Position numbers and translations under genes: made by a program | Part shown: piece by piece, positions 27,631-42,351 of the stretch | Position numbering within the stretch: position 1 is the stretch's first letter | How the letters are laid out: each line of letters opens with the position of its first letter | Notes under the pieces: generated by a model | Told to the model about the DNA's origin: nothing | What the model saw: only the letters and a program-made list of their open reading frames with translations | Database searches by the model: none | Assembly (NCBI GenBank): GCA_035998445.1 | Contig: DASYHQ010000064.1 | Coordinates: forward strand, 1-50,406 | Source of the DNA: Tepidisphaeraceae bacterium | GTDB taxonomy: Bacteria > Planctomycetota > Phycisphaerae > Tepidisphaerales > Tepidisphaeraceae | DNA length: 50,406 nt | Direction: 5' to 3'

Positions 27631-28234
27631 TTCTTCTGTAGGACAGGCATTCCTGCCTGTCTCTCCCCCCGTCTTCCTCTCCCCCCGTCTTCCTCTCCCC
27701 CCGTATTCGCCTCACACCTTCCGATCCAGAATAAACAACTCGGGATACATCCAAGGATCGTCCACGAGCCCCTTCGTCATCGCGTTGTGCAATACGTACT
27801 GCAACTTCTCTTCGAACTCTCGCCGGTCGCGAATAACGCGATCGAACGTCTCGTCCTGCCACACCTGACCGGCTTGCTTTCGATGTTCGTTGACGAGCTT
27901 GGCCGAGACGCCCTTCGTGCCCTTGCCGATGTCCGACAGACTGTAGTCGTTCATCGGCCGTACGAGCATGTGAACGTGATCGGGCATGACGACGGCAGCA
28001 AATAGCCGGTAGAAGCGACCGTGGCCACGCAGAACGTGGTCGTAAACGAGGTGTCGTTCCCTGGCGGATAGACGGCCACCAGCCAAGCGGAAGGTGAGGA
28101 AGTAAGTGACGTCTCCGATGTCATAATGTGGGAGGTGGCGGCGGTGAACCGTTCCCTTTCCTGGGGGAAGAGAAGGCAATGCGGGGGGAGAGGCGGGGGG
28201 AGAGACAGGCAGGAATGCCTGTCCTACAGAAGAG
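27631..28234. mobile_element. RAYT module flanked by inverted family A REPs
   Basis: A module of about 600 bp. At 27632-27670 and 28195-28233 are near-perfect inverted copies: GTAG then the hairpin GACAGGCA-TTCC-TGCCTGTC (27642-27661) with a C-rich tract, and the mirror image at 28204-28223 ending CTAC. Between them lies a REP-associated tyrosine transposase frame (27712 to about 28179). Between hairpin and gene end are three CCCCCCGTCTTCCT-type units (27666-27705). This arrangement is a RAYT with its own REPs, sometimes called a REPtron. It lies at the 3' end of thiE. Confidence 0.82.
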
Positions 28235-40019: not shown

Positions 40020-41102
40020 CTACAGCACCTCGACCGCCCTCGGATAGCTCCCCAGCACCGTCAGCTGAAGGCAGTGTGCCTTGGCGGCGTTGATGGCCTT
40101 CTGCATGGCGGGGTCGTCGGCGTGGCCTTGGGCGTCGATGAAGAAGTAGTATTCCCAGTTTACCTTTTTGCTGGGGCGCTTCTCGATGTCGGTCAGGTTG
40201 ATGCCGCTGTCGCGAAAGACGTCCAGCACCTCGGCGAGCGCGCCGGGCTTGTGGGCGGTGGTGAACATAATGGCGGTCTTGTCGTCACCCGTTCGCCTCG
40301 CGGGCTCGCGGCTGATGATGAAGAAGCGCGTGACGTTGTCGGGGTTGTCCTCGATGTTCTCGAAGAGGATCGCCAGGCCGTGCACCTCGGCGGCCAGGCG
40401 GCTGCCGATCGCGGCGACGCCGGGCATGGTGGCGGCCATCTCGGCGGCACGGCCGGTGCTGGCGGCGGCTTGGGTGTCGCGGTCTTTCGCTGTCGCGCCC
40501 AGGAAGTTGCGGCACTGCGTGAAGGCCTCGGGCTTGCTGTAGATCGTCTTGATCTTCTCCCACGGGTCGCGCGCCAGCAGGTTGTGGTGGACGTTGATCA
40601 GGACCTCGGCGCAAATCTTCGCTGATGAAGACAGGAACGCGTCGAGCGTGTCGACGACGCCGCCATGGATGCTGTTCTCGACCGGCACCAGGCCGTAGTC
40701 GATGTGGCCGCGCATCACCTCTTCGAAGACGGCGGGGATGTCGGTCAGCGGCACGTAGTCGACGCTGTGACCGAACTTGCCCACGCTGGCCTCGTGGCTG
40801 AACGTGCCGTGCGGCCCGAGGAAGCCGATCTTCAACGGCCGCTCGAGCGCGAAGCTGCCGCTCATCAACTCGCGGTAGACCGCCTCCAGCGACCGGTTGC
40901 TCAGCGGGCCCTTGTTCAGCGACCGCACCTTTTCCAGCACCGCCTTCTCGCGGTCGGGCGCGTAGATGGGGGCGTTGCTCTGGGCCTTCACCTTGCCCAC
41001 CTCCACGACGACCTTGGCGCGCTCGTTCAGCAGGCGCACGATTTCGTTGTCGAGCTGGTCGATCTGCTGTCGCAGCGGCGCAAGGTCGGATTCGGCGGGC
41101 AT
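40020..41102 (-). CDS. pheA: Bifunctional chorismate mutase/prephenate dehydratase
   Basis: Enzyme of 360 aa for phenylalanine synthesis. Residues 1-90: chorismate mutase (LRQQIDQLDNEIVRLLNER, VGKVKAQSNAPIYAPDREKA). Residues ~95-275: prephenate dehydratase with GFLGPHGTFSHEA, VPVENSIHGGVVDTLD and the active NVTRFFIISRE (TRF). Residues ~280-360: ACT domain (AHKPGALAEVLDVFRDSGIN, then LTDIEKRPSK), which allows feedback control by phenylalanine. Start ATG 41102. A 300-base gap upstream holds repeats and three palindromes (41297-41350). No other aro genes nearby. Confidence 0.94.
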   Translation of the reverse strand: MPAESDLAPLRQQIDQLDNEIVRLLNERAKVVVEVGKVKAQSNAPIYAPDREKAVLEKVRSLNKGPLSNRSLEAVYRELMSGSFALERPLKIGFLGPHGTFSHEASVGKFGHSVDYVPLTDIPAVFEEVMRGHIDYGLVPVENSIHGGVVDTLDAFLSSSAKICAEVLINVHHNLLARDPWEKIKTIYSKPEAFTQCRNFLGATAKDRDTQAAASTGRAAEMAATMPGVAAIGSRLAAEVHGLAILFENIEDNPDNVTRFFIISREPARRTGDDKTAIMFTTAHKPGALAEVLDVFRDSGINLTDIEKRPSKKVNWEYYFFIDAQGHADDPAMQKAINAAKAHCLQLTVLGSYPRAVEVL

Positions 41103-41296
41103 AGCGGGCGGTTGTATCGGCGGGGTGGGGGCGTGTAAAGGCGGCGGGACCGACCGCTAACGCCATGCCCAACAGGCCTTCTTCGCAAGGCTGCCGCGGA
41201 CGATCCGGCCGTTGGTCGACAAATTGCCTCTCTTGATGGTGACCGGCGGCCACCCGTGGTCTTCACGTCCGCCGTCGTACTGGAAAAGGGCCGTTC

Positions 41297-41350
41297 GTTG
41301 CCGGCAACGCGTCCTTCGTTGCCGGCAACAGACGGCCCGTTTCCGGCAAC
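41297..41350. promoter_or_regulatory. Three palindromes GTTGCCGGCAAC with 21-bp period
   Basis: GTTGCCGGCAAC occurs at 41297-41308 and 41318-41329, and GTTTCCGGCAAC at 41339-41350. Start-to-start spacing is 21 bp twice, i.e. two helical turns, so bound proteins would face the same side. They lie 195-250 bp upstream of pheA and about 270-320 bp upstream of the gene at 41620. It could be an operator cluster or a repeat. Confidence 0.5.
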
Positions 41351-41361
41351 GCAAGGGGCCA

Positions 41362-41486
41362 CAGTGTTTGGTAGTGGGTCAGTTTCGACACCTTCCCCCG
41401 TGGCACGCGTTTTCAACCCGTGTCTTCGCCCCAGAACACGGGTTGGAAACCCGTGCCACTTCAAACTGACCCACTACCCAGTGTTT
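41362..41486. mobile_element. 109-bp MITE with 16-bp inverted repeats and 8-bp direct repeats
   Basis: CAGTGTTT occurs at 41362-41369 and again at 41479-41486. Between them lies a 109-bp element whose ends GGTAGTGGGTCAGTTT (41370-41385) and AAACTGACCCACTACC (41463-41478) are perfect inverse complements. Inside is a GTGG-headed hairpin pair (CACGGGTT-TCC-AACCCGTG type). The layout shows a non-autonomous transposon inserted with an 8-bp target duplication. No transposase of matching type is in the window. Confidence 0.85.
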
Positions 41487-41619
41487 CGCGAGACCGTCGA
41501 ACTTCAGGCGAATAACGCCATTTCATACCGCCCCCACGTCCGAAATTAACGCACTTATCCACAGCCTGCCGATAACGCGCATGAGGGCCGCTGTGGTTCT
41601 CGGAAAGCAATGACCTAAC

Positions 41620-42351
41620 ATGCCGACCTCACAAGCCAGTCCCCCGATCGTCACCCAGGCGGCCGCCACGCAGCCGGCTGCGGAGATGGTCACGTTGCCC
41701 GACCATTGGCCGGCGCAGATCGACATCCTCAAAGGGTGCGAGACGATGAGCACCGGCGCCGCCACGCTGCTGGTGATCGCCGGCATCGTCTACCTGCTGT
41801 ACGGGTTCGCGTTCTTCAAGTGGCTGGTGATGCTGAACGCCGCCGTGCTGGGGGCGCTGGTGGGGCTGAAGATCGGTCACGCCTACGACGCGGCCATCCC
41901 GTGCGCGATCGTCAGCGGCTTCCTGGCGGCGGCCATCACGTGGCACAGCATGAAGTACTCGGTCGCCATCATGGGCGGCATCTTCGGGGCCGTGCTGGGG
42001 GCCAGCCTGTGGCACGCGTTCGACTTAGACGCCCAGTACGCCTGGAGCGGGGCGGGCATGGGCTTAATCCTGTTCGGCCTGCTGGCGTTCATCGTCTTCC
42101 GCGAATCGCTGATGATGTACATGAGCCTGCAGGGCAGCGTGATGCTGGTCTTCGGCATCCTCGGGTTGATCTACAAGTTGAACGACGTCGGCCCGGTCAT
42201 CACCAACAAGGCGACCGTCACCCCGTTCCTGCTGCCGCTGGCGATCTTCATCCCGGCGATCGTCGGGATCATCTACCAACAGCAGACGACGCCGGTTGTC
42301 CCCGCGGGTGGAGCACCGCCACCGGGTGGAGTGCCAGCGGTGAAGAAGTAG
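41620..42351 (+). CDS. Multi-pass membrane protein (TMEM198/DUF4203-like)
   Basis: Membrane protein of 243 aa. A hydrophilic N-terminus of ~40 residues precedes seven hydrophobic helices (~45-63, 66-84, 90-106, 112-130, ~140-158, ~163-182, ~195-213). Repeated GALVGLKIGH- and GAVLGASLWH-like segments give the pattern of TMEM198/DUF4203 proteins. A Pro-rich tail ends the protein. The role is unknown. A strong terminator-like hairpin follows at 42392-42428. Confidence 0.72.
   Translation: MPTSQASPPIVTQAAATQPAAEMVTLPDHWPAQIDILKGCETMSTGAATLLVIAGIVYLLYGFAFFKWLVMLNAAVLGALVGLKIGHAYDAAIPCAIVSGFLAAAITWHSMKYSVAIMGGIFGAVLGASLWHAFDLDAQYAWSGAGMGLILFGLLAFIVFRESLMMYMSLQGSVMLVFGILGLIYKLNDVGPVITNKATVTPFLLPLAIFIPAIVGIIYQQQTTPVVPAGGAPPPGGVPAVKK

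Follow-up and report, generated by a model that had tools for sequence, protein, structure and literature searches.

A 109-bp intergenic element of a Tepidisphaeraceae bacterium, probably an IS1-related MITE with a REP doublet as its core

Introduction

A short element lying between two genes of a Tepidisphaeraceae bacterium is very probably, to judge by its sequence, an IS1-related MITE whose interior holds a REP doublet, either captured or inserted. Its ends match those of transposase-bearing elements from the same taxonomic family, its insertion duplicates 8 bp, and ends and core have spread jointly, reaching at least five sites as a unit. With its target duplications it occupies positions 41362-41486 of the window, by which we mean the whole stretch of 50,406 nucleotides that was analysed (contig DASYHQ010000064.1).

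Results

Structure and setting of the element

An earlier note on this DNA had described a 109-bp element with perfect 16-bp ends and an 8-bp duplication, and both the sequence and a repeat search bear this out: the two inverted ends are 100% complementary and enclose 77 nt. The GTGG-headed hairpin pair that it placed inside was recovered as well, as a REP doublet (41400-41422 / 41437-41459). The repeat search gives this inner inverted pair as 41400-41423 / 41436-41459, 24 nt and 92% complementary. The parts of the element are as follows, with their basis in brackets.

41362..41369, no strand: left 8-bp target duplication, CAGTGTTT (sequence)
41370..41385, + strand: terminal inverted repeat of 16 bp, GGTAGTGGGTCAGTTT (sequence, repeat search, end-pattern search)
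41386..41399, + strand: 14-nt spacer, CGACACCTTCCCCC, with few changes in the other full copies (sequence, copy alignment)
41400..41422, + strand: first REP unit, GTGG head and hairpin, one mismatch against the genome unit GTGGCACGGGTTTNNAACCCGTG (unit-pattern search)
41423..41436, + strand: loop separating the two REP units (sequence, folding)
41437..41459, - strand: second REP unit, inverted, no mismatch against the unit pattern (unit-pattern search)
41460..41462, + strand: TTC, on the other strand GAA, which extends the conserved 19-bp end GGTAGTGGGTCAGTTTGAA (sequence, end comparison)
41463..41478, - strand: terminal inverted repeat of 16 bp, exact inverse of GGTAGTGGGTCAGTTT (sequence, repeat search)
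41479..41486, no strand: right 8-bp target duplication, CAGTGTTT (sequence)

The element thus shows the mark of a MITE, paired terminal inverted repeats without coding capacity. Mechanical ORF calling gives a minus-strand frame of 145 aa (41027-41464) that crosses the core into the flank; it is not transposase-sized and bears no sign of being a gene. Within the window no further copy of the 16-bp end was found at up to 3 mismatches. In shuffled windows the end matched 0.17 times on average, with at least two matches in 3 of 100 shuffles, and a rough, composition-based estimate puts at 4e-7 per window the expected number of perfect 16-bp inverted pairs that lie within 300 bp and have a perfect 8-bp direct repeat on their two sides. 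As a single strand the element is predicted to fold with -67.1 kcal/mol (z -12.5), a stability reached by none of 200 shuffles.

The element is intergenic and both neighbours point away from it:

40020..41102, - strand: chorismate mutase / prephenate dehydratase gene (Pfam CM_2, PDT, ACT)
41620..42351, + strand: membrane-protein ORF (weak TM7S3/TM198 match, below cut-off)

Its predicted hairpin might influence the transcripts of these two divergent genes. A search of Rfam with 40800-42000 gave no relevant match, only three weak ones outside the element and far below the gathering scores. Directly to the left of the element, in the same intergenic region (41282-41356), lie three CGTTGCCGGCAACGC-like palindromes with 21-bp spacing.

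Copies in the host genome

The host genome (64 contigs, 5.84 Mb, 95.5% complete) holds five full copies of 109 or 110 bp, 94-100% identical, and one right-half copy. These were picked by sequence and not by the presence of duplications. The five full copies can be aligned over their whole length, with the core, and have different flanks. A perfect 8-bp duplication borders three of the five, namely the window copy (CAGTGTTT/CAGTGTTT) and those on contigs C45 (GATTCTTT/GATTCTTT) and C61 (GGATTCCG/GGATTCCG); the duplication of the C28 copy matches at 7 of 8 positions (GGATGTTC/AGATGTTC), and the C39 copy has none (flanks AGACGCTC/GGAGCCGG). The earlier note had called the element a non-autonomous transposon, and the five full copies at unrelated sites, four of them with 8-bp duplications (one with a mismatch), support that description; the search for the 16-bp ends that it proposed found other copies, so that the outcome of "no other copies" is excluded. 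Position twelve of the end is A in both ends of two full copies, the window copy included, and C in one end of the other three; perfect ends are therefore not a family-wide property.

Further traces of the element were seen. The sequence at C56:24553 resembles a decayed copy. At two loci (L012 and L014) a single end with 2 mismatches adjoins a CCCTCTCCC repeat; these ends may be chance matches, since the reversed control gave 3 matches at up to 2 mismatches. A duplicate of the C61 copy's left end and of about 120 bp of its flank, which starts with another REP doublet, lies near C28:59975. The duplicated block measures 142 bp, is 99.3% identical (L117 2355-2496, L118 2015-2156) and is joined to different REP cores beyond, its identity ending 5 bases past the 16-bp end. 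The REP-MITE borders are breakpoints of such blocks, which fits a mosaic intergenic landscape and names no enzyme.

The REP doublet and the Y1 transposases

The unit pattern GTGGCACGGGTTTNNAACCCGTG has 30 matches in the host genome, 15 per strand, against 0 for the reversed control. They fall at 16 loci, and at 14 of these both units of the doublet were matched. The 16 loci comprise the five full MITEs, the half copy, the decayed copy and nine loci without these ends, which differ in loop and flanks. At four of these nine (L022, L023, L026 and L029) the doublet is enclosed by an inverted frame of another, unrelated kind, approximately GAGCGGATTGCAG...CATCGTAGCGG, near 1440-1620 of each locus. 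Within a single locus the left-right symmetry of this frame is weak, being reached by 14 to 134 of 500 shuffles; what speaks for the frame is the likeness between the loci. The same REP doublet thus occurs in two unrelated palindromic frames, of which the second is possibly a decayed MITE of another family.

Eight matches to the RAYT-type Y1 transposase (Y1_Tnp) were found in the host genome, seven of them above the curated cut-off. One Y1 transposase gene has on its flanks the REP that makes up the core beside the lone end at C28:59975; within the flanks fetched for the eight matches, no RAYT flanked by the REP family of the window element was found. Elsewhere in the window, 27632-28233 holds a Y1_Tnp match (27844-28008) in a 553-aa frame with GTAG-headed REP units (GTAGGACAGGCATTCCTGCCTGTC) on both sides, which may be what is left of a RAYT and its REPs.

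The REP-like core had been described earlier as cargo, and its presence at nine other host loci without these ends agrees with that. The word implies capture; the data fit either capture by IS ends or insertion of the doublet into a pre-existing palindromic MITE.

Transposase-bearing relatives

We searched 60 genomes of the same family and class, none of the same genus (61 with the host's own). The 16-bp end matched 61 times at up to 1 mismatch, with 14 of the 61 genomes positive (reversed control, 12 matches). Among the fetched stretches, three elements from the same family each hold a single transposase gene between similar ends (up to 3 mismatches in 16 bp) and are bordered by perfect 8-bp duplications:

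L101, 1866-6644: 4779 bp, duplication ACCCGCCG
L103, 1037-4277: 3241 bp, duplication GGCCTCCG
L119, 790-3183: 2394 bp, duplication GGGGATGG

The other two transposases share 63% and 65% identity with the first. The best library match of the three was the IS1 model NF033558 (E 5.5e-17 to 2.1e-15, below the curated cut-off); PF03400 was matched too, above its cut-off in two of three. In a wider search, where 80 loci were listed of 118 stretches, the matches listed include nine further transposase-bearing loci with these ends in other groups, for example in Nitrospira, Mycobacterium, Mesorhizobium and genomes of acidobacteria, and NF033558 was the first match of all nine transposases from other phyla. 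Over all 12 scanned transposases this model came first with E 4e-13 to 3e-17, at 50-63 bits against a cut-off of 100; IS6, IS481, IS1595, ISL3 and IS21 all scored below IS1 and were rejected as partner family. The list of 35 end pairs (three of which are one site) was pre-filtered for 8-bp duplications that differ at one position at most and is no evidence on duplications.

IS1 family ends follow the consensus GGnnnTG. This start is present in the window copy and the common end as GGTAGTG, and in one end of L119 as GGTACTG. Target duplications of the family measure 8-9 bp, a range that includes the 8 bp seen here. The three best plasmid relatives have 57-60% identity and carry the annotation "IS1 family transposase". 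Classical IS1 has two overlapping ORFs with a frameshift; none of the 12 transposases has this layout, each being a single ORF of about 285-365 aa, and we therefore speak of an IS1-related group and not of classical IS1. The ends, the 8-bp duplication, the transposase matches, the plasmid annotations and a likeness to ISAba3 (see Discussion) are the grounds for this name.

The earlier note had also proposed a search for an autonomous element with 8-bp duplications: relatives supply it, in L101, L103 and L119, and the host genome does not, with 0 matches to a transposase of the group at E <= 1e-10 in an assembly that is 95.5% complete.

Several elements with IS1-related ends contain passenger genes: an N6 DNA methylase and a PIN domain in L101, an AAA ATPase and a GNAT in L142, an HTH and an IrrE-like peptidase in L150 and L193, an HTH and DUF5753, without transposase, in L175, and a P63C domain in L191 and L200.

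Minimal forms of 33 bp

The smallest element seen consists of the end, one base and the inverse end, 33 bp in all, and was present at three sites among the fetched stretches. A 33-mer search of 396 genomes of one phylum at up to 3 mismatches, not selected for duplications, gave five sites in 4 genomes, one of them known before, whose 8-bp duplications carry 0, 2, 0, 0 and 1 mismatches. With L112 and L164 added there are seven distinct sites, all with 8-bp duplications at 0-2 mismatches. No 33-bp form was seen in the host genome, and viral contigs gave 0 exact matches. Either the 33-bp element itself transposes or it is what was left after a larger insertion lost its interior; the sequence would fit both.

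Recurrence of the enclosure in other bacteria

A genome of another genus of the same family (G001) contains 37 matches of a different palindromic core, against 0 for the reversed control. At 26 of the 30 core loci examined a recognisable end (up to 4 mismatches) lay within reach, against 4 of 159 control windows from the same loci. Duplications with up to 2 mismatches border only four of nine end pairs, and the majority of the elements in this genome are old. No transposase of the IS1-related group was found in it.

An acidobacterial MAG (G062) contains the 19-bp end 155 times at up to 2 mismatches. Its core, GGGGCACGGCTTTAGCCGTGCC, adjoins an end at 19 of 30 loci and stands without one at 11 (30 of 46 matches examined); several of these loci have a common flank and may represent one site. 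Five of the 11 end-free cores are preceded by TTTGAA and 4 more by CTTGAA. TTTGAA is the inner edge of the IS end, which reads GTTTGAA, and this suggests that a short-homology join may be one route by which such MITEs originate. In G061 the REP core was seen only within two MITEs. Other short elements with these ends contain tandem repeats or palindromes that are not REPs. In G062, G067, G069 and G070 the short elements form large bursts (43 to 155 matches of the 19-bp end), with several elements of 68 bp in G067. As far as sequence comparison goes, REP-like doublets lie repeatedly between IS1-related ends of this kind in bacteria that are unrelated to one another, and two sorts of mobile DNA that are as a rule considered separately appear to be joined.

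Discussion

For the movement of the element, an IS1-like transposase would bind both ends, carry the unit to a new site and duplicate 8 bp of target. Because no transposase of the group was found in the host genome, we infer that the element moved in trans or is stranded: the enzyme would act in trans, and its source element would now be absent from the genome or lie in the unsequenced few per cent. At the birth of the MITE a resident REP doublet could have taken the place of the interior, either through a short-homology join of an IS end with a REP border or because the doublet inserted where two ends abutted. The composite, which would be selfish DNA, would afterwards travel by the IS1-type route.

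How doublet and ends came together can be read in more than one way. Recombination or template switching may have joined the IS ends to a resident REP doublet through the short identity TTTGAA, a reading that we hold at somewhat under an even chance: it draws on the end-free cores of G062, preceded by TTTGAA at five of 11 loci and by CTTGAA at 4 more, but the motif precedes the REP at 0 of 9 end-free loci of the host genome. A nested insertion, which we regard as possible and give about one chance in three, would start from a short palindromic IS1-type MITE like the 33-bp form, into whose centre a RAYT-type REP doublet inserted, after which either system could move the composite. The seven 33-bp sites with their 8-bp duplications (0-2 mismatches) would supply the receiving palindrome, and seven of the eight RAYT-type Y1 matches of the host genome pass the cut-off. 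The same order of events is favoured by the second, unrelated inverted frame around four of nine other doublet loci, by a half element adjoining a different, RAYT-flanked REP core (L013) and by the REP dimers in palindromes of Anabaena variabilis, T. roseum and H. neapolitanus described in section 7 of PMC3733652. It fits less well with the host genome itself, where the 33-bp form was not seen and no RAYT was found flanked by the window REP family, and with the 14 extra nt that separate the core from one end in the window family.

It is unlikely that the standalone doublets are merely old MITEs with decayed ends, the REP doublet being no cargo at all. The decayed-looking copy at C56:24553 and the recognisable ends beside 26 of 30 cores in G001 are what such decay would leave, but at nine other host loci no trace of these ends is present and both loop and flanks are different, and four of those nine share another frame. 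We give almost no credence to a chance inverted repeat or an immobile regulatory hairpin (attenuator or terminator) of the prephenate dehydratase gene. The position between divergent genes and the strong hairpin would suit a regulatory role; yet copies are dispersed with different flanks and their own duplications, which refutes a fixed, immobile hairpin, and Rfam gave no relevant match in 40800-42000. A chance palindrome is ruled out by the shuffle counts and the expectation of 4e-7.

Several known systems resemble parts of this element. According to PMC6382973, ISAba3, of the IS1 family, has 24-bp ends (GGTGGTGTTTCA...) and 8-bp duplications around the composite insert that it bounds. Our group shares with ISAba3 and the IS1 family the 8-bp duplications, DDE transposases that match IS1 models first, and ends resembling those of ISAba3 (PMC6382973). 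Unlike the IS1 family, its transposase-bearing partners are single-ORF elements (about 285-365 aa) below the NF033558 cut-off, 2.1-4.8 kb long, several with passenger genes. Like bacterial MITEs such as MITEAba12 (PMC6382973), the window element is short and non-coding, with paired ends and target duplications and a transposase needed in trans; it departs from them in that its core is a host REP doublet and no matching transposase was found in the same genome. With REPINs and GTAG-type REP dimers, as PMC3116915 and PMC3733652 present them, it has in common a head tetranucleotide plus hairpin, an inverted doublet, many copies and RAYTs in the genome, but here the doublet lies within a DDE-transposon frame, the head is GTGG, and no RAYT was seen flanked by the REP family of the element. 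The palindromes of A. variabilis and H. neapolitanus likewise have a REP doublet midway; they are assigned to no transposon family in section 7 of PMC3733652, whereas ends, duplication and transposase partner are identified here. These REP dimers within palindromes are the closest precedent that we found for a REP/MITE combination (PMC3733652, section 7), and the open-licence literature yielded no report of the end sequence, of ISMhu11 or of IS1-related ends combined with a REP doublet.

As a MITE the element is ordinary. Less ordinary are the repeated enclosure of REP-like doublets across unrelated bacteria and the 33-bp minimal form, which falls below the size ranges quoted for MITEs, 50-600 bp and 70-300 bp, in PMC6382973 and PMC3733652, respectively. 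The 33-bp forms would be unusually small bacterial transposons and would offer a direct test of the minimum DNA needed between IS1-like ends.

Current views tie REP and REPIN families to a RAYT gene on their own chromosome, and how they are founded and spread is for that reason an open question. We put forward, as a speculative reading that we consider rather improbable, a cross-phylum chimaera of two systems: a minimal palindromic transposon, from 33 bp upward, would accept or capture the REP doublet of its host, and the composite would then be moved by a DDE transposase that acts on its ends and perhaps by a RAYT that acts on its core. If this were true, it would explain why REP doublets sometimes lie midway in longer palindromes, and DDE-transposon frames carrying host REP doublets would be a second route for the spread of REP families.
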